This document shows, in pieces, positions 7,084-20,951 of a stretch of DNA of 64,000 nucleotides (within the stretch, counting starts at the first letter, position 1; each line of letters starts with the position of its first letter). The notes below the pieces were generated by a model, which was not told the DNA's origin, did no database searches, and saw only the letters and a program-made list of their open reading frames with translations. The DNA is from Rhodoferax potami (GTDB taxonomy: Bacteria; Pseudomonadota; Gammaproteobacteria; Burkholderiales; Burkholderiaceae_C): positions 2,997,001-3,061,000 of the forward strand of contig NZ_JAVBIK010000001.1 of the NCBI RefSeq assembly GCF_032193805.1, written 5' to 3'. A program made the translations under genes and the position numbers.

Positions 7084-10000
7084 TCAGTATTTCACCCCCA
7101 CCACCTTCACCCGCGCATTCGGCGCCTCCCCAAACATCTCCGGCGCGTACATCGCTTCCACGCGTGAGGGCGGCAGCGAAAACTCCCCTACGTTGTTCAG
7201 GCGGATGGTGTATTCCATCTTCACCACACCCTTGGGCAGGTACTCGTAGTAGCTGCGGAAGGATTCGAAGCTGCGTTCCTCAAATGCCGGCCAACCGTCG
7301 CCCTCGCGTTTCTCGCCCTGAGTGGCGATCTCGCTATCGCGGCCCAGGCCGCTGCCCAGAATCGTGGCGCCGCCGGGCACGGGGTCGGTGATGGCGACCC
7401 AAGTCATATCGGCGCTGGCGTTCACCTCGATGCTGATGCGCAGCACGTCTCCGCGCGTGTAGCTGCCAGCGGGCAGACTCTTGTTGGCTTGTTCCACGGG
7501 GGTGATGGTTTTCTTGATCTGATAGCCCGCAAAGAACGGTGCCTTCAACTGCACCGCCGCTACCGACTGCAACGTGAGCCACGGCTTGCCCGCACCCTGG
7601 TGGGTCACGTTCAAGGTGTCCTTGACCGCACCTTTCTCGGCAGTTTTGCTCCAGGGCAGGAACATGGTGTTGTTCTTCAGGTTACCCGGAGATGCGGGCG
7701 CGCCAAACATCGTGGTCTGGTGTGCAGCGCCGGATGCATCGGTGGTCTTGATGCGTTCCACCTTGCTCCAATCCACGCTCGCAGTGCCCACGCCGCCTGG
7801 GGCGTTTTCCAAGCTCTTCATGCTGGCCTTGGTGCTGCCTGCCACCGGCACCGCTTCAAACTTGGCGCTGAATTTTTCCAGGGCCGAGCCGCCCCACAGG
7901 TTGGCGGTGGTGGTGTGCCACGCTCCGTTTTGCTGGCGGCTGATGAAGCCGTTGGCCAGGCGGCCCATGTCGTCTTTCCAGGCCGGGTCGTCCAGCACGC
8001 TCAAGATCAGGCGCGCGGTGTTCACGTCGCCGTTTTGCATCAGCCACCACCAGTAATCGTCCTTCTCGGTGCTGAAGATCATCTTGGTGCCTTGGTAGCT
8101 AATGCGGCTACGCAGAATCTGGTTGGCCTCGGCCAGGCGCTTGTCGCGCTCGGGCACATCGGTCACTCGCTTCAAGATGTTGAGCCAGTCGATCACCGCA
8201 TGCGTGGGCCACTGGTTGGGCGCAATGGTGATGCTGTTCACCATACGGCCTTGGGCTTTGCCGTAGCGCGACAGGGCTTCGATGGCGGCCAGCTTGCGCA
8301 TGTCCAGGTCTTTGCGGGGGCTCCAGAACTCGCGCTGGATACGGCCTTCCACAAAGGCGATCAGGCCACGCTCCATGGGCGCGCGGATCTCGTCGCTGAG
8401 GGCAAACGCCGGGTCAATGCTTGCAGCCTCATGGGTTGCAGCCAGCAGGTAGGCGGTCAGCGTGTCACTGCCGCGATTGGCCTCTCCATCGCGCGGCGGG
8501 AAGTAGTTGGCCAAGCCATCGCTGTCCAGGTAGCTCGGTATTTGCGCGGCCACGCTTTGCCACAGCTTGCCATCGCGCAGGCCCACGCTCTTGCTGGTCT
8601 TTTGCTCCAGGCAGGCAAAGGGGTAAAGCGCAAACCAGTCTTTCACGCCGGGCAAACCTTCGGCCAGCTTGGGTTGCAGCGCCATCTTCAGGCCGCCACG
8701 GCCGGGCAGAGCATCGGCAGGCGCATTCACGTCCATGGTGAGCGGACCGTCAATCTGTACCAGCGTGGCCTGTTGCACCGTGAGCGGTACGGCAGGCACG
8801 ATGCGTTGGCGGGCCTTCAGCGCGTCTTTGGCGCCGCTGATGGTGTCCTTGGCCTCTATCTCCCACAGGATGGCCTCGTTGCGGCTCAAGGCGAGCTGTG
8901 CGGGAGCAGTCACGTTCCATGCAACCTCACGGGCATCTCCCGCAGGTATATCAATGGTTTGTTGCTCTAAATTTAATAGCGTGGCGCGCGGGGTTACCAG
9001 CACCTTCATGGCCTGCTTGGTGGTGTTGCGCAGGGTCAGTTGGGCACGGTACTGGTCGTCCTCACGCACCAGGGGCGGCAGGCCGCTGATGATCTGCAAA
9101 TCTTGCGTGGCGCGGATGCTGGTGCTGCCGGTGCCAAACAAGCCGGTGGAGGCATCGGCCACCGCAACAATCTTGAAGGTGGTGAGCGCATCGTTGAGCG
9201 GCACGGTCACTTGGGCTTGGCCGTTGGCGTCCAGCTTGAGCGCTGGCTTCCAAAGCAGCAGGGTCTCCAACAGTTCACGCGCGCCGCTGTGGCCGCCACC
9301 GCCACCGGGCGCCACGGCCTTGCGGCCATAGTGGCGCCGGCCGATGATTTCCATTTGCGCGGTGGATGTTTCCACGCCCCAGCTGCGCCGCTGCAACATG
9401 GCATCGAGCAGGTTCCAGCTGCGGTTGGGCATCAGCTCCAGCAGGGCCTGGTCTACCGCGGCCACAGCCACTTCGGCGTTGGCAGCCGGTTGGCCGTTGG
9501 GCAGCTTGACGGTGATGGTGACCTGCGCCTTGCCGCGCACGGCGTAGCTTTCCTTGTCGGCCTTGACGCTCACATTCAGTTCATGCGCCTGCGTGCCCAC
9601 GCGGATTTCGGCAACACCCAAGCGGAAGGCGGGCTTGCTCAAGTCCACCAGTGCAGTGGGCGCCACGTACTCGCGCCCCTCGTACCAGAAGCTGGTCCAC
9701 CACTCGCGCGGAGCCTTGTAGCCCCAGGTGAAGAAGCTGTACCACGGCACCTCGCGCAGGCGGCCGCGCAACACCAGCGCGCTCACATACACGTTGGGCC
9801 CCCAGCCTTCCTGAATCTTCAGGTGGATGGTCGGGTCCTGGCCGTTGAGCTCCACCACCTCGGTGTGAACAATGCCTTCGCGCTCCACGGCTACCAGTGC
9901 CGTGGCAAAGCGGAAGGGCAAGCGCACTTGGAAGTTGGCCGTCTCCCCGGCTTGGTAGCTCTTTTTCTCAGGCAGCAGGTCGATGCGGTCGTTGTTGTCG

Positions 10001-13000
10001 CCACCGAACCAGAGCTCGCCTTGCTTGGTCACATACACGCTGCTGGCGGCCTGGATGCTGTTACCCGAGCCGTCTTTGGCGGTCACCACCAGCTCCACCT
10101 GGCCGGCTTCGTTGACCTCGGTTTCGCACAGCAGCAGGCCGCGGGCATCGCTCTTGCCGGAGCAGACGCTGCCCAGTTCTTTGGTGCTGGTTTTGTTGTC
10201 GTAGGTGTAGAAGCCACCCACCATGCGCTTGCGGGTGGTGGTGGTGATGCGGGCGGTGGCTTTCACCTCCAGCGCCACCCCGGCTTGCGGTTTGCCGGAC
10301 AAGTCCAAGGCGAGCGCGCGGAACTTGATCTTTTGTCCGCTGGAGACCCAGCCCTCGGTCTTGATACCGGCAATCACGCTGGCAGGCCATAGAGTCTGGG
10401 TGCTGCGGATGGTTTGCACTTCGCCGTTGGGGTCGGAGTAGGTGGCTTCCAGCAGCAGGTCTTGCGGCTGGCGGCTCTTGGGCACATCGGCAATAGTCAG
10501 CTTGCCGCCGCCGTTCTTGTCGAGGGTGAGCGGCATTTTGTCGGCGATGACGCGCGCATCCGCGCTAGCGGTGTTTTCTTCTTCGCCGACGTCCGAGCGG
10601 GCTTGCTGCCCCACTTGCGGTGGCGAGAAGCTGAATTCGCTGAAGTCCGCAAAGCTCAGGCCTTTGGCCCGCACCAAGGCCGACACGCGCACCGGCAGGT
10701 TGACGGCGCCGCCGCCAGACACGTAGTTGATCTGCACATCCACCGGCACTTGGGGGGCGTTGACCAAGGGCTTTTTCTCGGTAGGGGTGACACGGCCTTC
10801 GAGCACCGGCAGCCGGAACTCTTCGACCCGGAACTCGCCGGTGTAAAAGTCTTGCCTTTCATTCCCACCGTTGCCACCCGTGAGCTGCACCTGGTAGGCG
10901 CCCAGCTTGGCGCCCTGGGGGATAGAGAAGCTGTTTTCTGCACTCAAGCCTCCGGTGGCGGTTTTGCGCCATTCCAGTGGCAGCGCGTATTGCTGGCCGC
11001 TGCCCATGTGGGTGATGAGTAGGGTGTGGGGCTTGGCATCCGGCAATCCGAAGCCTTTGCTGGTCTGGGTGCGCAGCACGTGCTTCATGGACACGGTTTC
11101 GCCTGCGCGCAGCAAGGTTCGGTCGAAGATGGTGTGGGCGACTTCGTCGGGCAGGGCCTGGCGGCTGGTGGGCACGTTGAAACGCCAAGGCTCAATGCCG
11201 CGGTTCCAGTCGCTCCAGGTGAAGGCCAGGTCTTGCACCGTGCCTTTGCCATCGGCTGCAGGCTGGGCGGCGCGGGCGCTCACAAAGTAGGCGCTGCTGT
11301 AGTAGCCGTCTTCCCCGTTGCAGCGGGGCGCTTGGGGCGACACGCCATTGAGGGTGGCAATGCCTTGGGCATCGGTCTGGCCACGGGCCACTTCTTGGCC
11401 CCGGCAATCGGACACCACCACTTGGGCACCGGACACGGGCTTGCCCTTGTCGAGCGAGGTCACCCAGGCGAGCGCATTCTCGCGGCCCAGCTTGAAATGC
11501 ACGCCCAGGTTGGTCACTAGTGCGGCGGTGCGGACATACATGGTGCGCCCTTCGCCATAGCGCTCGTCCAGTAGGCTGGTGCCCAGCTTTTGGGAGGCGA
11601 TCTCCACCACATGGAAGCCGGGGGGAGGGGAATGCCCACCACCTCGAAGGGGCGCGGGTCTTGGCTTTGGGGCTGGGGCAAGTCCAGCGTTTTGGCGCCG
11701 GGGCGGCCGTCTAAGAGCGAGAGCATGCGCGTTTGCACATAGTCGCGGTCGTAAGGGGTAGACGGCTTGGGCAGCTTGGCGCCCAGTTCGCGGGCGGCCT
11801 GGTTGCGGGAGATATTGGTTTCGTCGTAGCGCAACACCTTGCGGTACCAGGCAATGATGTCGGCGTCCGTCCCCGGCTGGAAGGTGCGCACCGTGCCGGC
11901 AGGCGCCTTGGCCCTGGATTTGTCCTGCTCAGCGTTCAGACCCTTGACCTTGAGCGCAGCTTCGACGTTGCGCAAAGTCACCGGCAGCATGGCCACGCCA
12001 TCGGGCTCGGCAAAGCGCTCCACGATGCCGAAGGGCGAGGCCGCAAACTTGGCCAGCGGCGGCATGGCGGCGGTGGCGGTTTTGAGCGGGAAGCTGTCCG
12101 CATTGCGCAGGGTGCGGCCGGACGCGTCTTTGAAATCTTTGGGCAGCGTCAAGGTCAACTGGGCCTGCTCGGGCAGGCCGCCTTCAAAGCGCACGCTGTT
12201 GACCACGTTGTCTTCGTCACCGCTGTCTTCCGCGAGTACGGGCTTGAACGTGTTCTTGCCGTCACTCAGGCGAATGGCTTGCAGCAGCTTGGCCGACACC
12301 GGCGCATTGAAGCTGAGCTGCAGCGGGCGAATCGGCAGGCAGGCAGCCTGGGCGTTCTCGCGTTCGCAGCTGAAGTTGGCCGCAAAAGGCTCGCGCACCT
12401 GGTAGGCAAACTGCCGCTCCACCGTGTTGGGCACGCCGGGGGTGGTGCCGGTGGCCGGCGTGGCCACACCCTTGCCGAACACCACACTCACTTTGGCCGA
12501 TGACGACAGGCGGCGCGCGCAAGTCATGGTCACATACGACAGCGGGTCAGCTTTGGCGTAGGCAGCCAGCCCTTGGGATTCCAGCAGGGCAGCCCGCTCT
12601 TTGCCCTCGAGCAGGCGGATGCTGATCTTTTCGCCCAGGTCGGATGCCTTGCACCACACATTGGCTTTTACGCTCTCCAGCGTGGCGGGGCCATTGAGCT
12701 CCAGAATAAAGAATTGTTCTTCATCGATGCGGTTGCCCTGGTAGGGCTGGATGCTGCGCACAAACGGGCCACTGCTATTAAATTTATAGCTGCTCGCGCC
12801 CGTAATATCTGCGCCCTTGGGCGATTTGAACCCTGTTTTGACTTGCACCGTGCAGCGCACACCGGGGGGCAGGTCGCGGTCGAAGTCGTAGGCCCACACG
12901 CGGTCGTTTACCCAGCGGCCTGTGCCTTTGGTCACTTGGGCGTCACTGCAGCTCAGGGTGAGCGGGGCTTCGGCCTTGGGGTCGCCGAAGTTAACCGCAC

Positions 13001-13136
13001 TCTCGTCAAACTTGGCCACCAGCTGGCGCACCTGCGCCACTTCGCCCTGGGGCGAAAGGCTGACGATTTGCAGTGCCTGGGCGCTCCAGGCAGAGGCCAG
13101 CCAGCTGCAGGCCAGCGTCAATTTTTTTATTTTCAC
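7084..13136 (-). pseudogene. Alpha-2-macroglobulin family protein, split by one frameshift
   Basis: A bacterial alpha-2-macroglobulin, a periplasmic protease trap. The frame opens at a GTG at 13136 (AAGGGA six bases upstream) with a Sec signal peptide ending AWSAQA. It runs to about 11,620, where the expected GIPLPPGFHVVEIA changes to PPASMWWR. The reading continues in another frame (open from 11610) to the stop at 7084. Adding one base to the six-G run 11620-11625 (C6 on the coding strand) joins the parts into about 2017 residues. The thioester motif CLEQ is present near combined residue 1507, and macroglobulin repeats surround it. It is the only gene between divergent promoters and the PEP-CTERM gene; no pbpC partner is visible. 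The frameshift may be real or a sequence error. Confidence 0.9.
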
Positions 13137-13262
13137 GGTGATTCCCTTAATGTGTTGCCAGCGTAGCCGATAACTTTGCTGTCTCGTTGACCACGGTTCC
13201 GCTCTCTTGACTTCTCCCTTGTGGGCGTCGCATATTGAAGGCAAATTTTTTTGTAATTAATT

Positions 13263-13290
13263 GAATCCGGCCGTGCGCCAAGTACGTATC
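13263..13290 (+). promoter_or_regulatory. Predicted ECF-sigma promoter for the DUF3034-hemoglobin operon
   Basis: GAATCC at 13263-13268 (with a preceding T), a 16-bp spacer, then CGTATC at 13285-13290, 55 bp before the DUF3034 start. The same motif and spacing occur on both strands upstream of the ECF sigma gene and the ferritin-like operon around 18,530-18,609. This suggests that the sigma factor at 17890-18465 controls this operon. The call rests on visual matching only. Confidence 0.6.
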
Positions 13291-13345
13291 TACATCGAGC
13301 AATCTGTTTTGTTTTCACTCCATCACTTTTGAACGGGAGCTGCCC

Positions 13346-14272
13346 ATGAAAATCCGGCTGACCATCATCGCCCTGAGTGCCGCTGCTGCTTGCAGCATGG
13401 CTGTTGCAGATACCGGGAAACTGTTACTGACCGGAGGCGTGAGCTCCATTGATGGAGCGGCCGGCGGTGGCTTGACTCCATGGGCCACCATTGGCACCAA
13501 TGCCACTGCGGGCGAAATGGGGGTATCTGCTCACCTGAGCCGTGCAGTAGTAACCGACTACCAGCTCAACACCATGGGTATCGCGTTCGCGTTCGACGAA
13601 CGCTTTGAAGTCTCTTTTGCGCAGCAAGAGTTCAATGCCTCTCCAGTTACCGCTTTGAACGGTTTGGGCTTTTCGGTTCAAAACGGCCAACGTATCAAAA
13701 TGGATGTTCTAGGCCTGAAGGTGAAGGTGGCGGGCGACGCCGTGCTCGACAGTGACACCCTGATGCCCCAGATTGCCTTGGGTGTTGAACAAAAGTCGGT
13801 CAATGCCGGCTCCATCACACCGGTCTTGGACTTTTTAGGCGCCAAAACCAGCGGTACGGATTTTTATGTCAGCGCTACCAAGTTGTTTTTAGCCAATAGC
13901 TTGCTGGTAAACGGCACTTTGCGTTACACCAATGCCAACCAAAACGGCCTCGTCGGTTTTGGCTCCAAGGCACCAGGAACGAACAGTGCTAGTTGGGTCC
14001 CGGAGTTTTCATTGGCTTACTTGGTCAACAAAAAAATTGCGATAGGCGCGGAGTACCGTGCCAAACCCAATAACCTCCGTTCGCTGGGGCAGGCGGCGAA
14101 TCTGGGCGAAGGATTGCAAGAGGACGCTTGGAAGGACGTGTTTATCGCCTGGGCGCCCAATAAAAACACATCATTGACGTTGGCCTATCTGGACTTGGGA
14201 CGCATTCTCCCCGGCGTCACCTCCAGCCGCAATCAAAGTGGCTACTACCTCTCGGGCCAATTTGCGTTCTAA
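13346..14272 (+). CDS. DUF3034 family outer-membrane-like protein
   Basis: A 308-residue exported protein with a Sec signal peptide (about 1-21, cleaved after SMAVA). The conserved GKLLLTGGVSSIDGAAGGGLTPWA opening marks the DUF3034 family. The rest is made of alternating amphipathic strands and ends in an aromatic residue (SGQFAF), as in outer-membrane beta-barrels. Localisation in the outer membrane is therefore inferred. Function is unknown. A GGGAG box precedes the ATG. The exported hemoglobin gene follows 37 bp downstream, and both appear to share the ECF-type promoter at 13263. Confidence 0.85.
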   Translation: MKIRLTIIALSAAAACSMAVADTGKLLLTGGVSSIDGAAGGGLTPWATIGTNATAGEMGVSAHLSRAVVTDYQLNTMGIAFAFDERFEVSFAQQEFNASPVTALNGLGFSVQNGQRIKMDVLGLKVKVAGDAVLDSDTLMPQIALGVEQKSVNAGSITPVLDFLGAKTSGTDFYVSATKLFLANSLLVNGTLRYTNANQNGLVGFGSKAPGTNSASWVPEFSLAYLVNKKIAIGAEYRAKPNNLRSLGQAANLGEGLQEDAWKDVFIAWAPNKNTSLTLAYLDLGRILPGVTSSRNQSGYYLSGQFAF

Positions 14273-14309
14273 GCGGCGACCCTCCATTTCATTCTAGGAA
14301 GCTCTCACC

Positions 14310-14747
14310 ATGAAAACACTTGTGATCTCAATCGCATTGGTAGCCGCTAGTTTCAATGCAAGTGCCCAAACCGTTGCTCCCGTCAAAAATGACGCGCTTT
14401 ATCAAGCCTTGGGCGGCACCGCTGGCTTGAAGTCACTGATGGATGTGTTTGTGGCAGGTTTGAAGGCAGATGCGCGCATTGGCGACCAGTTCAAAGACAC
14501 CAAATCCTCCTACCTTTCAGAACAGTTGACCAACCAAGTTTGTGTCCTTAGCGGTGGCCCATGCACTTACGACGGCGAAACCATGAAAAACGCACACGCG
14601 GGGCTCAAAATTAACAAAGGTCATTTCAATGCCTTGGTCGAAGTGCTGCAGGTTTCCATGGATGCGCGCAACATTCCATTCAGCACACAAAACCAGTTAT
14701 TGGCCTTACTGGCGCCCATGCATCGGGACGTGATTACCGTGAAGTAA
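14310..14747 (+). CDS. Exported group I truncated hemoglobin
   Basis: A 145-residue protein with a Sec signal peptide (about 1-20, ending NASAQ) followed by a truncated globin domain. The family pattern ALYQALGGTAGLKSLMDVFV is near the N-terminus, and NAHAGLKINKGHFNALVEVL holds the probable proximal heme ligand His96. Most bacterial truncated globins are cytoplasmic, so export to the periplasm is notable. Two cysteines (78 and 85) flank a short loop and could form a disulfide there. Heme-based oxygen, NO or peroxide chemistry is the general role of the family; the substrate here is unknown. It is second in the DUF3034 operon. Confidence 0.88.
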   Translation: MKTLVISIALVAASFNASAQTVAPVKNDALYQALGGTAGLKSLMDVFVAGLKADARIGDQFKDTKSSYLSEQLTNQVCVLSGGPCTYDGETMKNAHAGLKINKGHFNALVEVLQVSMDARNIPFSTQNQLLALLAPMHRDVITVK

Positions 14748-14760
14748 GCCAATTTGCTCC

Positions 14761-14796
14761 CCGTTAAAAAAGCCGCAATAGCGGCTTTTTTAACGG
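14761..14796. terminator. Bidirectional Rho-independent terminator
   Basis: Perfect 16-base arms (CCGTTAAAAAAGCCGC and its complement) around an AATA loop, with a T-run on each strand. It sits between the convergent hemoglobin and diguanylate cyclase genes and can serve both. Confidence 0.92.
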
Positions 14797-14815
14797 GTGC
14801 ACCTGCAGTCCACGG

Positions 14816-15958
14816 TCAGCGTAGTAATGCTTGATTGCGGCCTTGGTGTTTGGCTGCATAAAGTGCAGCATCGGCACGTGCGATGGTTTCATCACGTTCT
14901 TCTCTTGGAATCTGAGCGGTTACTCCGGCGGAGAAAGTCGCTTGAATCGTTGGATTGGACGACCAGTTGACCGGCGTGTTGCACGCGAGGCGCATGCGTT
15001 CCAAGATCTTGAGCGCTTCGTCGGGCGTGGTGTCCGGGAGCAGTAGCATGAACTCTTCGCCCCCCCAGCGGGCCAAAACATCGCCTGCCCGCAAGCAGGT
15101 ACTCAAAATATTAGCAAACAGGCGTAAGGCCTCATCACCCACCTGGTGCCCGTAGCGGTCGTTGATGTGTTTGAAATGATCGATGTCCAGCAGGCAAATA
15201 CACAGCGTTGTATGACCATCATGCCGGCGCTGTAGCTCATAGTCCCACAGTTCGTAAAAATGCCTGCGGTTGGGTAAGCCAGTGAGTTCGTCCCGGGTGG
15301 CCAGTTCGTGCACTTTGCCCAAAGCCAGCCCGAGAGCATCTTTTTGGTGTCTCAGTTTGATGCGAAGCGCACTCAATTGGGCCGCTAGCTTGGCAATAGC
15401 CGGCAGCACCAAGGCAGGCAGCAGAAAGTGGAATAACTCTATCCTGGGCTCAAAAATATGCGGCGCTTGCCAGGTGCATAAGCCGATGCCGATTCCCAGA
15501 CTAAATACCGATAACCAGCCAAGTTGCCAGCAACGGGCCGGCGGTAGTATGAAGGCACCAAAAACCAGTACTAAGGCCATGATCATGGGCATCAAGCCCC
15601 GCGCGGAAGGGTTGATCGCATAAGCCAAGGTTAGGACCACAATGGCAAACACCATTTGCATCAGTGTGAGTGCCGGGTCTTTGAAGCCTTTGGTGCGTCC
15701 GGTGCGAATGGCTAAATAAATGCCGCACTGCCCGACAATGATGAGCACTGCCAGCATAGACGCCTGCACCCAGGAGGCGAGCCCCATCCACACTGCCAAG
15801 GCTTCCAGCAACAGGCACACCATAAACACTGCCGCAGCTCCCAGCGTACGCGCGAGACGGATACGGAGCTTCGGGTCTGTGCCCAACAAAAGGCAGCTCA
15901 GAGAGCTCTGTGACGGAATGCCGTCTGTACTTGGTGGGATCTGGCTCTGCGTTGGCAT
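14816..15958 (-). CDS. Membrane-bound diguanylate cyclase
   Basis: A 380-residue protein. The N-terminal half (about 30-200) has five to six hydrophobic segments, for example VFMVCLLLEALAVWMGLASW and MLAVLIIVGQCGIYLAI. A short coiled linker leads to a C-terminal GGDEF domain (about 215-378) with an intact GGEEF signature near residue 298. It should make cyclic di-GMP at the inner membrane. An RxxD product-inhibition site is not evident. The next gene upstream on the same strand (15986-17038) is also a diguanylate cyclase, 27 bp away, so the two may be co-transcribed. Confidence 0.9.
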   Translation of the reverse strand: MPTQSQIPPSTDGIPSQSSLSCLLLGTDPKLRIRLARTLGAAAVFMVCLLLEALAVWMGLASWVQASMLAVLIIVGQCGIYLAIRTGRTKGFKDPALTLMQMVFAIVVLTLAYAINPSARGLMPMIMALVLVFGAFILPPARCWQLGWLSVFSLGIGIGLCTWQAPHIFEPRIELFHFLLPALVLPAIAKLAAQLSALRIKLRHQKDALGLALGKVHELATRDELTGLPNRRHFYELWDYELQRRHDGHTTLCICLLDIDHFKHINDRYGHQVGDEALRLFANILSTCLRAGDVLARWGGEEFMLLLPDTTPDEALKILERMRLACNTPVNWSSNPTIQATFSAGVTAQIPREERDETIARADAALYAAKHQGRNQALLR

Positions 15959-15985
15959 GGCTGGGCCCCGGTGGTTAGGCAGTGT

Positions 15986-17038
15986 TTAGTCCTGCTTTGG
16001 CACTTGTTGAGTGTCTAAATCGTTGCGTATGCAATTCCGGCCGGAGTGTTTGGCCAGGTACACCGCGCGGTCTGCTTCCATGATGGACTCTGTCAGTGGC
16101 CGATGAGGCATTACGGCCGCCACTCCGACCGAAATGGTGACTGACAGGGGCTCACGGTTCGCTTCCACGGCGACGCGCAATTTTTCAGCCACGATCATGG
16201 CTTTTTCGCGGCTGGTGTGCGCCAGACACACCACGAACTCCTCCCCGCCCCAACGGATCAGGTCATCGTCTTTGCGCAGCGTGTTACGCATCAATTGGGC
16301 AGTTTTTTGAAGGACAACATCACCGACCGCATGGCCGTAGGTATCGTTGACGTGTTTGAAATGGTCAATATCAATCAGCATCACAAACGAGGTAGGGTCG
16401 TTGTCGGATTGACGCTCCATTCGCCGCTCAATGCCCGGCATGGCATGCCGGTTCATGGCCCCGGTCAATGAGTCTGTGAACACGGTGGTCTTGAGTGTCT
16501 TTACCTCTGCCGAGGAGCTCATTACCGAAGAAAACAATTTGCCAAGGGCTTTGAACAGCCCAACGTCCATGTCTTCAAAGTAGTGAGGTGTCCCGGTGTA
16601 CACCACGAATAAGCCCACTTCCTTGCCATCAGGAGATGACAGGGGAACTGCCAGAGAGTTGACGATTCCGTATACGGTGGCTGCCTCTCGCCACGGGGGG
16701 AACGGGGAATCCGCCTCAATCACAAACGATTTGATTTGCTGGCCGCGTAGCACAGAGAAGGCTGGCCCCTGTTCGGTCAAAGGGGTGCGCACGACCTTCA
16801 GGTCTTTGGCGAAGTTGTGAGCCACCCCGGCGTAAACCTGCGGAAAAACGAGCAATGAGTCCGGATGACCGAACCATGTCCATGCCAACAAAATGTGCTC
16901 GCTGGCTTGGCACAGGGTTTCACAAAACGCGGCAACCACAGACAACTCGCCACCGGATTGGATCAAATCTGCCGCACTGGAAATGATGGCTTCCGCGATG
17001 GCGGAGCGTTCTGCAGATACATCTAAAGTCCGGCTCAT
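15986..17038 (-). CDS. GAF-like sensor diguanylate cyclase
   Basis: A 350-residue soluble protein. Residues about 10-170 form a GAF-like sensory domain (FCETLCQASEHILLAWTWFG through VYGIVNSLAVPLSSPDGKE). Residues about 185-345 form the GGDEF domain with VMLIDIDHFKHVNDTYGH and an intact GGEEF motif near residue 263. It should be an active cyclase tuned by a small ligand or redox signal. It lies 27 bp upstream of the membrane cyclase gene and 41 bp downstream of the anti-sigma gene on the same strand, so partial read-through from the sigma operon is possible. Confidence 0.9.
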   Translation of the reverse strand: MSRTLDVSAERSAIAEAIISSAADLIQSGGELSVVAAFCETLCQASEHILLAWTWFGHPDSLLVFPQVYAGVAHNFAKDLKVVRTPLTEQGPAFSVLRGQQIKSFVIEADSPFPPWREAATVYGIVNSLAVPLSSPDGKEVGLFVVYTGTPHYFEDMDVGLFKALGKLFSSVMSSSAEVKTLKTTVFTDSLTGAMNRHAMPGIERRMERQSDNDPTSFVMLIDIDHFKHVNDTYGHAVGDVVLQKTAQLMRNTLRKDDDLIRWGGEEFVVCLAHTSREKAMIVAEKLRVAVEANREPLSVTISVGVAAVMPHRPLTESIMEADRAVYLAKHSGRNCIRNDLDTQQVPKQD

Positions 17039-17079
17039 GGAAAGAAATCCTGTTCGCAGTTGCCTCGTTTTGAATGACC

Positions 17080-17880
17080 TTACAGCATTTTTTGAATCAA
17101 TGCACCTTTAAAAAGCACCGGACCGGTCGGGCCGCCTTCACCCGGGACGCCACCTTTGGGCTCCAAGCTGATGGCCAGGGTGGGCACGTCCCGCACATCG
17201 TTCTCGCCGGCAGTCAAGCGCAGCAATTTTTCTCCGCCCAACACACCCAGCGATTTCGGTCCACTGCCGGGCGGCAAGGCCCAGAGTTGCAGAGACTTGT
17301 CTCCCGCCTCTTGGAAGCCACCAACCCGTTGCAGGGTCAATTTTTTGCTTTTCGGGTCAAAAGTTACCAGCATCGACGCGGCAGCTTGGTTGTCCGCGAG
17401 CACCGCCACGTATTCGATCTGCGGAGTCGCTTGCAGCTGGGTTTGCAGTTTGGCAATCTCGCTGCCCATGTCCTGGCGCAGGTTGACGCCCACTGCAATG
17501 GCCGCCACCGTGGCAAACGCGCTGGCCGCACTGATGCCACGCCAGACGGTAAGACTGCGCAGCCAGCCTGTGAACGGCACCGGCTTATCGTTGGCTTCGG
17601 CAGTTGCCGCCGCGGTGCGACGGGCATAGAGCTGGGCTTGCTCGCGGTCAGCCTTGACGAGGTTGTCAATGCGCGTCCAGACGGCAGAGTCGGGTTGCAC
17701 GCTGGGTTGCAATTCGTTGATGCTGGCAAAACGGCTTTGCCAGATCAGGGCAGCAGCGCGCACCGGCGCTTGTTCGCGGGCCATGGCCTCAAAGCGGCGG
17801 CGTGCACCGCCACGCAGAGTGCCTAAGGCGTAGCTGGAGGCCAGTCGCTCCAGCAGTTCAGGGTGTTGATGAATTTTCAT
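17080..17880 (-). CDS. RskA-type anti-sigma factor
   Basis: A 266-residue single-pass membrane protein. The N-terminal cytoplasmic anti-sigma part (about 1-95, LASSYALGTLRGGARRRFEA) lacks the HxxxCxxC zinc motif. One transmembrane segment follows near 115-132 (GISAASAFATVAAIAVGV), then a periplasmic RskA C-terminal domain with QLWALPPGSGPKSLGVL. Proteins of this family hold an ECF sigma factor at the membrane until regulated proteolysis. It begins nine bases after the sigma gene stop, so the pair is an operon. The input signal is unknown. Confidence 0.88.
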   Translation of the reverse strand: MKIHQHPELLERLASSYALGTLRGGARRRFEAMAREQAPVRAAALIWQSRFASINELQPSVQPDSAVWTRIDNLVKADREQAQLYARRTAAATAEANDKPVPFTGWLRSLTVWRGISAASAFATVAAIAVGVNLRQDMGSEIAKLQTQLQATPQIEYVAVLADNQAAASMLVTFDPKSKKLTLQRVGGFQEAGDKSLQLWALPPGSGPKSLGVLGGEKLLRLTAGENDVRDVPTLAISLEPKGGVPGEGGPTGPVLFKGALIQKML

Positions 17881-17889
17881 GGGGTGCCT

Positions 17890-18465
17890 TCAGGCAAAAC
17901 GGGCCATGCACGCGCGGAGCTGGTCGAGCCCGCGGCGTATCCATGTTTTAACGGTTCCCAGCGGCAGCTGCAGCTGGGTGGCAAGCTCGGAGTGACTCAT
18001 GTCGCGGATGTAAGCGAGGTTGACCACTTCCCGTTGCTTGTTGTCGAGGCGACTCAGGCACTGATTCAATGCCCACGCCTGCTCACTGGCGAGTGCGGTG
18101 TCCATGGGGGTGGGGCCTTCACCGTCGAGGGTGTCGGCCAGCACATCGTCAATTTCCTGGGTGAGGTGAGAGCGCTCCGCAGCGCGCCGGCGCAAAAAGT
18201 CCAGCGCACGGCTGCGGACGATCAGTCCCATCCAGGCCATGGGCGGGCTCAGGCTGGCTGAATACCCGGGGGCAGATTTCCAGATATTCAAGAAAGCCTC
18301 CTGCAGCACGTCTTCGGCGAATTCGCGCTGGGTGACCACGCGCAGTGCCAAGCCGTAGAGCTTGCCGGCGCATTCGTCATACAGGGCCTTGAGGGCTTGG
18401 GCGTCCTGCTGGGCGATGCGTTCCAGCAGACCGATGAGCATGGTGTCGTGGTTATCAGCATTCAT
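17890..18465 (-). CDS. ECF RNA polymerase sigma factor (SigK-like)
   Basis: A 191-residue sigma factor with region 2 (about 28-95, ALYDECAGKLYGLALRV and EDVLQEAFLNIWK) and region 4 (about 130-185, REVVNLAYIRDMSHSELATQ and GTVKTWIRRGL). No extra domains are present. It is followed by its RskA-type anti-sigma factor. A promoter with TGAATCC and CGTACT reads into this gene from 18558, and a matching promoter drives the divergent ferritin-like operon, so autoregulation is likely. I infer a stress response aimed at envelope or redox damage, from the exported proteins it faces. Confidence 0.93.
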   Translation of the reverse strand: MNADNHDTMLIGLLERIAQQDAQALKALYDECAGKLYGLALRVVTQREFAEDVLQEAFLNIWKSAPGYSASLSPPMAWMGLIVRSRALDFLRRRAAERSHLTQEIDDVLADTLDGEGPTPMDTALASEQAWALNQCLSRLDNKQREVVNLAYIRDMSHSELATQLQLPLGTVKTWIRRGLDQLRACMARFA

Positions 18466-18529
18466 TCCTCCATTGTCAGCTAGAACTCGTTGCGGTTTGT
18501 GGCACCCATGCAGATGAGCACCTGTAACC

Positions 18530-18558
18530 AGTACGCACTAACCCTGAATCCGGATTCA
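18530..18558 (-). promoter_or_regulatory. Predicted autoregulatory ECF promoter of the sigma gene
   Basis: On the minus strand TGAATCC (18558 to 18552), a 16-bp spacer, then CGTACT (18535 to 18530), 65 bp before the sigma gene start. The -35 part lies in a perfect 14-bp palindrome (TGAATCCGGATTCA, 18545-18558). The motif is shared with two other promoters in this window. Confidence 0.6.
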
Positions 18559-18579
18559 CGAAAGTTTTTTTAAAAAAGT

Positions 18580-18609
18580 TGAATCCGATCCATCAGGGCG
18601 GCGCGTATT
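18580..18609 (+). promoter_or_regulatory. Predicted ECF promoter of the ferritin-like operon
   Basis: TGAATCC at 18580-18586, a 17-bp spacer, then CGTATT at 18604-18609, 66 bp before the first ferritin-like start. It is divergent from the sigma-gene promoter and has the same core. I expect it to be read by the neighbouring ECF sigma factor. Confidence 0.6.
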
Positions 18610-18674
18610 CGACTCGAGAGCTAGAAATTCTGGTCTCACTGGATTGCACAACCATCAACCGAAAGGAATCCGAC

Positions 18675-19268
18675 ATGACTTCCATTATTCAAACTGTGAA
18701 CGCGACTTCTATTGCATCCCGCCGTGGTTTCCTGGGCCGCACCGGCACCCTGTCCGCAGTAGCGGTGGCTATGTTGGCCGGCAAAGAATCTTTGGCGCAA
18801 GGTATGGGCGGCGACACCTCCAAGGACGTGAGCATCCTGAACGTGGCCTTGGGTCTGGAGCACGAAGCCATCAACGCTTACCAACTGGGCGCTGGCAGCG
18901 GCTTGCTGCAAAAGCCGGTGTTGGACGTGGCGGTGCGTTTCCAAGCGGACCACAAAGCCCACCGTGACGCACTGATTGCCACCATCCAAAAGCTGGGCGG
19001 CACACCGGTGATGGAAAAGAAACTCGACGAATATGCCAAAGCCCTGAAGGCAGACACCCTGCGCAACCAAGGCGACGTGCTCGACCTGGCAGCCCGCTTG
19101 GAGCTGGGCGCGATCAACGCGTACCTTGGCGTGATCCCCGCGTTTGGTAACAAGGATCTGGCCAAAGTGGCAGGCCGCTTGGCTGCTGACGAGACCATGC
19201 ACTACATCTTGTTGAACAACGCCATGGGCCGTCCGCTACCTGCCGGTGCTTTGTCCTTCGGTGCCTGA
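18675..19268 (+). CDS. Tat-exported ferritin-like domain protein, copy 1
   Basis: A 197-residue protein. A twin-arginine signal (SRRGFLGRTG, then AVAVAMLAGKESLAQG) suggests export in folded form through Tat. The mature part is a four-helix ferritin-like domain (PF13668 type) with LEHEAINAYQLG and DHKAHRDAL in one half and LELGAINAYLG and ADETMHYILL in the other, giving Glu/His residues that could bind a di-iron or other metal centre. The ATG at 18675 has AAAGGA upstream; longer frames start far from any binding site. It is the first gene of the operon opposite the ECF sigma factor. The protein is identical to copy 2 from the Tat motif onward. Confidence 0.9.
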   Translation: MTSIIQTVNATSIASRRGFLGRTGTLSAVAVAMLAGKESLAQGMGGDTSKDVSILNVALGLEHEAINAYQLGAGSGLLQKPVLDVAVRFQADHKAHRDALIATIQKLGGTPVMEKKLDEYAKALKADTLRNQGDVLDLAARLELGAINAYLGVIPAFGNKDLAKVAGRLAADETMHYILLNNAMGRPLPAGALSFGA

Positions 19269-19398
19269 TTTGTCCCCAGTAATTTGCAATTTCGATAAAT
19301 AAGTATCAATTTGCAAAGTTATTGATTTGTTGTTTAAAACGGTTAAGGTTCTGGTGGGGGCAATGATTGCACCCCACCTTCATTCAAGGAGTTCTCCA

Positions 19399-19977
19399 AT
19401 GACAAACGTGATTCAATCTTCCGCATCCCGCCGTGGTTTCCTGGGCCGCACCGGCACACTGTCCGCAGTAGCGGTGGCTATGTTGGCCGGCAAAGAATCT
19501 TTGGCGCAAGGTATGGGTGGCGACACCTCCAAGGACGTGAGCATCCTGAACGTGGCTCTGGGTCTGGAGCACGAAGCCATCAACGCCTATCAACTCGGCG
19601 CTGGCAGCGGCTTGCTGCAAAAGCCGGTGCTGGACGTGGCAGTGCGTTTCCAAGCGGACCACAAAGCCCATCGTGACGCACTGATTGCCACCATCCAAAA
19701 GCTGGGCGGCACACCGGTGATGGAAAAGAAGCTCGACGAATACGCCAAAGCCCTGAAGGCAGACACCCTGCGCAACCAAGGCGACGTGCTCGACCTGGCA
19801 GCCCGCTTGGAGCTGGGCGCGATCAACGCTTACCTGGGCGTGATCCCCGCGTTTGGCAACAAGGATCTGGCCAAAGTGGCAGGCCGCTTGGCTGCTGACG
19901 AGACCATGCACTACATCTTGCTGAACAACGCCATGGGCCGTCCGCTGCCTGCCGGTGCTTTGTCCTTCGGTGCCTAA
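19399..19977 (+). CDS. Tat-exported ferritin-like domain protein, copy 2
   Basis: A 192-residue tandem copy of the preceding gene. From the SASRRGFLG Tat motif to the C-terminal LSFGA the two proteins are identical. The DNA differs at about 17 synonymous sites plus the stop codon. Only the first dozen residues and the upstream region differ. It has its own AAGGA box, and the 130-bp spacer contains a repeated ATTTGCAA, but no TGAATCC/CGTA promoter. It is probably expressed from the upstream operon promoter. The next gene starts directly after its stop (TAAATG), so it is coupled to the cytochrome gene. Confidence 0.9.
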   Translation: MTNVIQSSASRRGFLGRTGTLSAVAVAMLAGKESLAQGMGGDTSKDVSILNVALGLEHEAINAYQLGAGSGLLQKPVLDVAVRFQADHKAHRDALIATIQKLGGTPVMEKKLDEYAKALKADTLRNQGDVLDLAARLELGAINAYLGVIPAFGNKDLAKVAGRLAADETMHYILLNNAMGRPLPAGALSFGA

Positions 19978-20373
19978 ATGAAAGCGCGCACCCTCTCGAT
20001 GTGGTGCGCCTTGGCGTGGGCCTTTGCTGGGCCTGCGCTGGCGCAGTCCCAAGCAATGGTCCCGTCGGTAAGCCGTGGGCAACAGTTGGTTGAGAGCCGT
20101 TGCTTCGGTTGCCATAGTGTGGATTCCAATCGCATTGGTCCCGCATTGGGTGGTGTGGTGGGCCGAAAAGCCGGCAAGGCCGAAGGCCACGACTATTCAA
20201 AAGCCCTTGCTGCAGCCACCCATACCTGGACGGTTGCGGGCCTCAAAGCATGGTTAACGGACCCCGAAAAGGTCGTTCCCGGTCAAGAGATGAACTATCG
20301 CTTAGACCTTGCGCAGGACAGGGAGGATGTGGTCGCCTACCTCGCCACATTGTCCAAACCCACCCGTCCCTGA
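19978..20373 (+). CDS. Class I c-type cytochrome
   Basis: A 131-residue periplasmic cytochrome c. A Sec signal peptide (about 1-22, ending GPALAQ) is followed by the heme-binding motif CFGCH (residues 42-46) and a probable axial Met105 in PGQEMNYRL. Size and layout fit a small monoheme class I cytochrome. Its ATG follows the ferritin-like stop with no gap, which suggests translational coupling. A role in carrying electrons to or from the ferritin-like proteins is an inference from position. Confidence 0.9.
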   Translation: MKARTLSMWCALAWAFAGPALAQSQAMVPSVSRGQQLVESRCFGCHSVDSNRIGPALGGVVGRKAGKAEGHDYSKALAAATHTWTVAGLKAWLTDPEKVVPGQEMNYRLDLAQDREDVVAYLATLSKPTRP

Positions 20374-20408
20374 TTTTTTAAAACGTTTCATCTGTCACAG
20401 GAGTTTTT

Positions 20409-20951
20409 ATGCAAACACGTACCGCTCTCTCCCTGATTGCCTTGGCTGCACTCACCGCTTGCGCCACCCAGCCAATGCGCGCACCCTTTAACCAGGCAGA
20501 CCTGCCTGCTGCGGTGCAAGTGCCCGCCGGCAACAAAGTGGCCCTGGAGCACGCTGCTGCTGGCGACGTGAAATACCAGTGCAGTGCCAAAAAAGACATG
20601 GCCGGCCAGTATGAGTGGGTGTTTGTGGGGCCTGATGCCGGTCTGAAAGATCGCAGCGGCAAAATTGTCGGCAAGTACTACGGCCCACCCGCCACCTGGG
20701 AAGCCAACGACGGCTCCAAAGTGACAGCTACTCAAGTGGCGGTGTCACCGAATGGCACAGGCAACCTGCCATTGCAACTGACCAAAGCCAACCCAGCCAC
20801 CGGCATGGGAATGATGCAAGGCGTGACCTTCATCCAGCGCGTAGCCACTGTGGGCGGCGCCGCCCCAAGCGCTGCATGCTCCAAGGCCAACGAAGGAGCA
20901 AGCCAGCTGGTGCGCTACACCGCTGACTACATCTACTACAAGGCAATGTAA
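20409..20951 (+). CDS. DUF3455 family lipoprotein
   Basis: A 180-residue putative lipoprotein. The signal peptide ends in the lipobox LTAC (Cys18). The mature part fits the DUF3455 family: VPAGNKVALEHAAAGDVKYQC, then YEWVFVGPDAGLKDRSGKIV, the YYGPPATWEANDGSKVTA segment and a C-terminal VRYTADYIYYKA. The family has no known function. It is the last gene of the ferritin-like operon and ends just before a terminator hairpin. Envelope location matches the other products of the operon. Confidence 0.88.
   Translation: MQTRTALSLIALAALTACATQPMRAPFNQADLPAAVQVPAGNKVALEHAAAGDVKYQCSAKKDMAGQYEWVFVGPDAGLKDRSGKIVGKYYGPPATWEANDGSKVTATQVAVSPNGTGNLPLQLTKANPATGMGMMQGVTFIQRVATVGGAAPSAACSKANEGASQLVRYTADYIYYKAM

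Follow-up and report, generated by a model that had tools for sequence, protein, structure and literature searches.

A conserved promoter motif connects a SigK/RskA-type sigma factor with genes for exported haem, ferritin-like and barrel proteins in Rhodoferax potami and its relatives

Sets of genes controlled by an extracytoplasmic function (ECF) sigma factor and its anti-sigma factor are a known kind of regulon. Our present results describe one in Rhodoferax potami, studied from a stretch of 64,000 nucleotides (assembly GCF_032193805.1, contig NZ_JAVBIK010000001.1, positions 2,997,001 to 3,061,000; the window). A SigK-type sigma factor, encoded beside an RskA-type membrane anti-sigma factor, very probably drives a single regulon from promoters of the form TGAATCC-N16/17-CGTA, whose members encode the DUF3034 barrel protein, an exported globin, ferritin-like proteins, a cytochrome c and the DUF3455 lipoprotein. 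The links between promoters and genes, and their conservation, are supported by genome comparison. We also consider probable the account as a whole, in which a SigK/RskA-type switch acts through shared promoters to protect the envelope against oxidants. No description of this particular regulon was found in the open-access literature searched.

The window contains three matches to TGAATCC-N16/17-CGTAYY; in 100 dinucleotide-shuffled versions of it the average, taken as the expected number, was 0.01 match, and no version had more than 1. An earlier reading of the sequence alone had placed three such sites at promoter positions, and they were found there, 57-67 bases before start codons (Table 1). 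Its coordinate for the first site, 13263, is one base off: the site is real and starts at 13262. The site at 18530..18558 on the minus strand stands before the sigma gene itself and is, by its position, one of autoregulation. Its -35 box also forms half of a perfect 14-base palindrome, TGAATCCGGATTCA (window 18545-18558), which is kept in the related genome G001 and not in G020.

The genome-wide scan proposed by the sequence-only reading showed the motif to be rare rather than common at random positions, and the regulon claim stands: the whole genome (4.0 Mb, 3 contigs) contains 7 matches to TGAATCC-N16/17-CGTA and the reversed control 0, and with spacers widened to 15-18 bases the counts are 10 and 1. 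The boxes often carry TG ahead of CGTA and T or C behind it. Besides the three sites in the window, one match precedes an operon starting with a DUF4331 gene, one precedes an esterase gene, one is at hisI/hisE and one is within rpoB, the last three gene names (hisI, hisE, rpoB) being given by eye from translations. The exact motif at the hisI/hisE junction (L004 1501-1530) is also present in G001, G007 and G020, with an altered form in G025.

Conservation of the motif was followed in 80 loci, the best 80 of 392 relatives in a scan of named genomes with the sigma protein (66-99% identity). They belong to Rhodoferax, Polaromonas, Hydrogenophaga, Curvibacter, Ottowia and unnamed Comamonadaceae or Burkholderiales, and many are metagenome-assembled. 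A gene was credited with a site if the exact motif occurred from -350 to +150 around the start of its longest open reading frame (ORF); genes with less than 480 bases of searched stretch and homologues scoring 60 bits or less were left out. First-in-operon genes were those with no same-strand neighbour within 100 bases upstream, and because the gene caller is crude, some misses are wrong starts. By this rule the motif stands at 33/35 first-in-operon DUF3034 genes, 27/38 ferritin-like genes and 39/62 sigma genes, compared with 0/474 other first genes and 0/260 other internal genes. It was also met at 5 of 16 internal sigma genes, at four of seven first-in-operon cytochrome genes and one of seven globin genes, at 1 of 68 internal anti-sigma genes and at none of the 36 cupredoxin genes. 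Another 41 sigma ORFs fall outside this list. Twenty-two of them follow DUF3034 on its strand, in the manner of the Hydrogenophaga-type operon order DUF3034-globin-cupredoxin-sigma-anti-sigma, and 19 of the 22 have the site at DUF3034; among the others, an exact site was found at a different distance in 8, a site with one mismatch (for example TGCATCC or TGAATCT) in 7 and neither in 4.

The distance between the two boxes is equally restricted. Counted at all spacers of 10-25 bases over the 1.33 Mb of these loci, the pair of boxes occurs 89 times at 16, 36 times at 17 and twice elsewhere, so that 125 of 127 matches are at 16 or 17, while the reversed pattern occurs once in total. The automatic rule assigned 120 of the 125 to regulon genes. 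On inspection of the other five, L173 and L189 proved to lie before ferritin-like genes and L178 before sigma; the L131 site is the ferritin site of a close relative, its gene being cut by the contig end, and the L152 site is unexplained. Bases of the spacer vary freely between loci and the boxes are constant. Spacer length depends on the target: 17 at 25/27 ferritin sites, 16 at 38/39 sigma and 32/33 DUF3034 sites, and the window shows the same assignment (17 for ferritin, 16 for sigma and DUF3034). Our guess is that the target-specific spacer reflects promoter strength.

The sigma factor and the motif are associated at two taxonomic levels. Within the genus, a sigma orthologue (at least 76% identity) is present in 6 of 25 genomes; these have 7, 7, 5, 5, 7 and 9 motif sites and the other 19 have 0 to 4, with means of 1.61 sites per Mb with sigma versus 0.25 without (Mann-Whitney p = 0.00013, kinship ignored). 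Of 41 relatives, the six with sigma all have DUF3034 and the remaining 35 lack it; such an overlap has a chance of 2e-7 if kinship is ignored. At the family level, 34 of 150 genomes hold a sigma orthologue at 55% identity or more, a cut-off picked after seeing the gap between 55% and 46%. The strict motif TGAATCC-N14/15-TGCGTAT has 28 sites in 18 of the 150 genomes and none in the reversed control, and 16 of these 18 genomes are among the 34 sigma holders (Fisher p = 2e-10, kinship ignored). In the 34 sigma-holding loci of this sample, which form a second set, an exact site stands before at least one regulon gene in 28 and before sigma in 21. Occurrence of the motif at the same genes across genera, its association with sigma within the genus and the family, and the co-occurrence with DUF3034 strongly support what the sequence-only reading had claimed, one regulon under the sigma/anti-sigma pair.

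The same reading had called the pair SigK/RskA-type, and sequence comparison agrees with the label. The sigma factor consists of regions 2 and 4 only, and among the 18 distinct PDB sequences that it matched, SigK (4nqw) ranks first (E=3.7e-22). Cys136 and Cys186 of the window sigma occupy the positions of the redox cysteines C133 and C183 of SigK and are present in 119/119 aligned orthologues, in an alignment that takes in the window sequence and some loci twice under different ids; a third cysteine, Cys32, is variable. According to part of PMC7509140, cysteines at the C133/C183 positions characterize 94% of ECF18, 56% of ECF19 and less than 2% of other families. The adjoining gene encodes the anti-sigma factor, which has an RskA_C domain and a homologue in 79/80 loci, the remaining one, L136, ending at a contig edge. 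No cysteine is present in the anti-sigma sequence of the window. In Mycobacterium tuberculosis, a disulphide between these cysteines makes the SigK-RskA complex more stable, and SigK is set free when it is reduced; a double change of the cysteines to serine abolishes activation, and RskA is cleaved by Rip1 (PMC7509140, in part). As reduction frees SigK there, an oxidant would not simply activate SigK through its thiols; by analogy, a second, periplasmic input through RskA_C is likely.

Table 1. Promoter sites and genes of the regulon locus in the window.
Feature	Position	Strand	Remarks
Promoter motif TGAATCC-N16-CGTATC before DUF3034-globin operon	13262..13290	+	Spacer 16; ATG 57 bases after end of CGTA
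DUF3034 protein, predicted outer-membrane beta-barrel	13346..14272	+	Pfam PF11231, E=1e-89
Exported truncated globin	14310..14747	+	Pfam PF01152, E=1.5e-9, above cut-off
GGDEF protein, last gene behind sigma operon	14816..15958	-	Pfam GGDEF
GAF-GGDEF protein, third gene after sigma and anti-sigma, same strand	15986..17038	-	Pfam
RskA-type membrane anti-sigma factor	17080..17880	-	Pfam RskA_C (PF10099), E=9.4e-25
ECF sigma factor, SigK-type, Cys136 and Cys186	17890..18465	-	Pfam sigma-70 regions 2 and 4 (Sigma70_r2, r4_2)
Promoter motif before sigma gene	18530..18558	-	Spacer 16; ATG 66 bases after end of CGTA
Promoter motif before ferritin-like operon	18580..18609	+	Spacer 17; ATG 67 bases after end of CGTA
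Ferritin-like protein 1, twin-arginine signal Arg16-Arg17	18675..19268	+	Pfam Ferritin_2, E=3.9e-23
Ferritin-like protein 2	19399..19977	+	Same protein as copy 1 except first residues
Exported cytochrome c	19978..20373	+	Pfam Cytochrom_C, E=2e-10
DUF3455 lipoprotein, eight-stranded barrel model	20409..20951	+	Invariant lipobox Cys18, Cys58/Cys157

Names given earlier to the genes of the window (DUF3034, Bac_globin, RskA_C, ECF sigma, two Ferritin_2/DUF4439, cytochrome c, DUF3455) agree with Pfam. The globin, cytochrome and ferritin-like products retain residues of the cofactor-binding type, as do the cupredoxin-like proteins of relatives. Positions kept at 97% or more are His96 (proximal-type), Cys78 and Cys85 of the globin (n=45); Arg16-Arg17 of the twin-arginine translocation (Tat) signal, E62, E64, H93, H96, E143, E173 and H176 of the ferritin-like protein (n=45); Cys42, Cys45, His46 and Met105 of the cytochrome (n=31); Cys18, Cys58 and Cys157 of the DUF3455 protein (n=40); and His99, His100, Cys149, His152 and Met155 of the cupredoxin-like protein (n=42). 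The last has no Pfam match; its name, as well as the ligand roles of all these residues, is a reading of the residue pattern. The exported globin combines the family match with the proximal histidine of truncated globins, and its haem binding is putative. The DUF3034 protein ends in Phe308, present in 34/34 aligned sequences, and is modelled with moderate confidence (predicted local distance difference test score, pLDDT, 69.9) as a 12-strand barrel matching the FapF, OmpG and KdgM barrels; the DUF3455 model is an eight-strand barrel (pLDDT 85.6). Inspection by eye showed an export signal or membrane segment in all products of the window except sigma and the GAF-GGDEF protein, the second GGDEF protein appearing membrane-bound. 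The sequence-only reading that every controlled product looks exported is nearly right, the exceptions being sigma and the two GGDEF proteins behind the anti-sigma gene.

The regulon is larger than that reading reported. In the genome of R. potami, the DUF4331 gene starts 48 bases after a site. This gene has a site ahead of it in G001, G020 and G009 also, and in R. potami it is followed by genes for a lipoprotein of 87 residues, a TPR protein and a HupE/UreJ-type membrane protein; this operon is, on the strength of its site, a fourth predicted unit of the regulon. Two further genes are likely members. The esterase site, common to G001 and G020, is only 8 bases before the ATG (L042 3513-3560), a distance found also in G170, which belongs to another genus, and so short a distance suggests that the esterase mRNA is leaderless. 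The esterase frame of R. potami itself is broken after the signal peptide. The other gene, resembling by eye a methyl-accepting chemotaxis receptor, has a variant site TGAATCT 45 bases upstream, and in G001 and G020 the corresponding gene has an exact site, 46 bases upstream and with other bases in the spacer. The recognised genes downstream of the 28 strict sites of the family comprise five for DUF3034, four for DUF3455, three for ferritin-like proteins, three for glutathione peroxidase, two for DUF4331 (in one case at a distance of 766 bases), two for esterases (one of these in R. potami) and one each for sigma, a HupE_UreJ protein and a protein with a weak FA_desaturase_2 match. The glutathione peroxidase is exported and stands behind the motif in three other genera (G081, G129 and G141, in G141 300 bases on). 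In G003, an exact motif (L055 606-632) precedes a short ORF ahead of a gene resembling, by eye, a TonB receptor, a possible further member there. Three near-identical strict-motif sites without recognised target occur in G116 (L218, L236 and L242, near 1501). In G097 (L240, near 1501) the strict motif is 279 bases ahead of an ORF that presumably resembles an ergothioneine-pathway enzyme.

The pair shares with the SigK/RskA systems of M. tuberculosis and Yersinia enterocolitica (ECF18/19) the sigma family, the 4nqw match, the two redox cysteines and the adjoining RskA_C anti-sigma factor. Genes mpt70 and mpt83 are fasciclin genes. They are driven by the studied SigK systems (PMC7509140, in part), whereas the targets in the window encode haem, di-iron-type and barrel proteins. 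Around the two fasciclin genes of R. potami, a search out to about 1.5 kb showed neither the motif nor any listed variant, so that a fasciclin regulon is not seen in this genome. A pair of Rhodobacter capsulatus named RpoE-ChrR is, in part of PMC7074977, described as nearer to SigK/RskA than to RpoE/ChrR, as induced by singlet oxygen and as adjoining an operon with glutathione peroxidase. Its neighbours are bsaA1 and cryB, not the window genes. The RpoE-ChrR pair of Rhodobacter sphaeroides, responding to singlet oxygen, is similarly an ECF sigma with an oxidant regulon, and its RpoE has a -35 sequence, TGATCC, similar to the window motif. The RpoE-ChrR type (ECF11) possesses a zinc anti-sigma domain with CxxC. 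Membership of the window pair in this type was rejected, as its anti-sigma factor has zero cysteines; unlike ChrR, which requires zinc coordination (PMC7406223, in part), it carries RskA_C. RpoE2-HrsE of Haemophilus influenzae, responding to hypochlorite, resembles our pair as an ECF sigma over exported oxidant-repair genes (PMC7907618, in part) and differs in its 67-residue cytoplasmic anti-sigma factor, its ECF group 13 and its other targets.

We propose that the sigma factor and the membrane anti-sigma factor form an autoregulated switch of SigK/RskA type. A signal from outside would make the anti-sigma factor release sigma, probably by proteolysis, with modulation by the Cys136/Cys186 pair. 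Released sigma would then guide RNA polymerase to TGAATCC-N16/17-CGTA promoters. In R. potami these would serve four units or more: the sigma operon, the two ferritin-like genes with cytochrome c and DUF3455, DUF3034-globin, and DUF4331-lipoprotein-TPR-HupE; the esterase and the chemotaxis receptor are probably driven as well. Haem, di-iron-type, barrel and, in relatives, copper-type proteins would in this way be supplied to the periplasm and outer membrane, where they would most likely limit damage by oxidants such as peroxide or singlet oxygen.

Oxidant defence of the envelope is, in our estimate, about as probable a main task as all other tasks together. It is favoured by the glutathione peroxidase targets and by the singlet-oxygen induction of the SigK-like pair in R. 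capsulatus. The envelope redox or metal-stress programme suggested by the sequence-only reading is plausible, the conserved cofactor-type residues and the glutathione peroxidase targets in three genera pointing to it. Several observations weigh against an oxidant-responsive regulon as we draw it. The direction of thiol control in SigK, which reduction frees (PMC7509140, in part), misfits a simple model of switching on by oxidant. The exported glutathione peroxidase gene of R. potami has no site, even with up to two mismatches allowed. Its genome has no photosynthetic reaction centre, which makes self-made singlet oxygen unlikely. Among the 28 strict family sites, 6 have no recognised target, and two of the 18 strict-motif genomes, G070 and G175, have no close sigma orthologue. 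In the 80 loci, no more than two of the ten first-in-operon DUF3455 genes have the motif, and one of the two DUF4331 genes (first 0/1, internal 1/1); six of the 34 family loci (L097, L115, L120, L123, L125 and L126), two of the most distant sigma orthologues included, have no exact site at any listed gene.

More speculatively, a thiol-tuned sigma of the SigK type might have been rewired in Comamonadaceae from adhesin genes to a self-contained extracytoplasmic module whose task is to intercept oxidants or nitric oxide there. The module would comprise an outer-membrane channel, periplasmic globin, cupredoxin, Tat ferritin, cytochrome c, DUF3455 and DUF4331-HupE, spacer length would be a conserved setting of relative output, and the esterase mRNA would be leaderless; this extended version, taken in full, we hold to be rather unlikely. 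The regulon gives the orphan families DUF3034, DUF3455 and DUF4331 and the exported truncated globins a shared context, one switch and a defined promoter. Its motif can be used to find the regulon in any relative, the environmental genera concerned include cultured members, and with the pair the redox sensing of SigK/RskA could be studied in a Gram-negative background.

The same regulon might instead serve the balance of metals or of respiratory redox state (iron, copper, nickel; electron flow under microaerobic conditions), as its ferritin-like, cytochrome, cupredoxin-type and HupE/UreJ products and the release of mycobacterial SigK under reducing conditions would suggest. We regard this as possible and less likely than oxidant defence, as glutathione peroxidase is targeted in three genera and the targets examined included no recognisable gene for a metal sensor or metal ATPase. 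A role in attachment to surfaces or hosts, in which the GGDEF proteins and the chemotaxis receptor pass the output to behaviour, seems improbable: a GGDEF gene follows the anti-sigma gene in the window, G001 and G020, and the motif or a variant stands ahead of the receptor-like gene in three genomes, but 73/80 loci gave no GGDEF hit. Attachment would also fit Delftia acidovorans grown on soybean roots, in which the ferritin-like gene CHL79_06465, the next-numbered fasciclin gene CHL79_06460 and two DUF3455 genes are up (PMC7725335, in part). A different sigma factor or regulator acting on the motif, with this sigma its neighbour by coincidence, would account for G070 and G175, in the former of which the strict site adjoins a DUF3034-like gene; this reading is very unlikely in view of the autoregulatory site at most first-in-operon sigma genes, of the counts given above for the remaining sigma ORFs and of the association of motif and sigma in genus and family. 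Chance, or merely shared DNA ancestry, fits those matches that are coding sequence (rpoB, hisI/hisE, intron-type reverse transcriptases; by eye) and is otherwise contradicted by the counts, 1 reversed match against 127 over 16 spacers, and by spacer bases free to vary while the boxes stay, which leaves it a negligible probability.

The locus itself seems to have a mixed local history. Window positions 16005-18700 match G001 at 88% DNA identity; the DUF3034-globin part matches G001 at only 73%, and G007 likewise, and the DNA between that part and 16005 matches neither. The cupredoxin gene of G001 and G007 is missing from the window, its position being taken by the GGDEF gene at 14816..15958, and a cupredoxin query of the R. 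potami genome returned a single match, to a protein at another place with 38% identity. Probably the DUF3034-globin cassette and its promoter were exchanged together, as one block (window 13000-16004). The two ferritin-like genes are 96.9% identical in DNA over 553 bases, with no exact motif directly before the second, and represent a recent duplication or gene conversion (window 18675-19977); a second ferritin-like copy is present also in G001. At window 7084-13244, a large exported protein, alpha-2-macroglobulin-like by eye, is split into two overlapping ORFs in different frames (7084-11610 and 11517-13244), the counterpart of which in G020 (L048) is open for 1655 codons.

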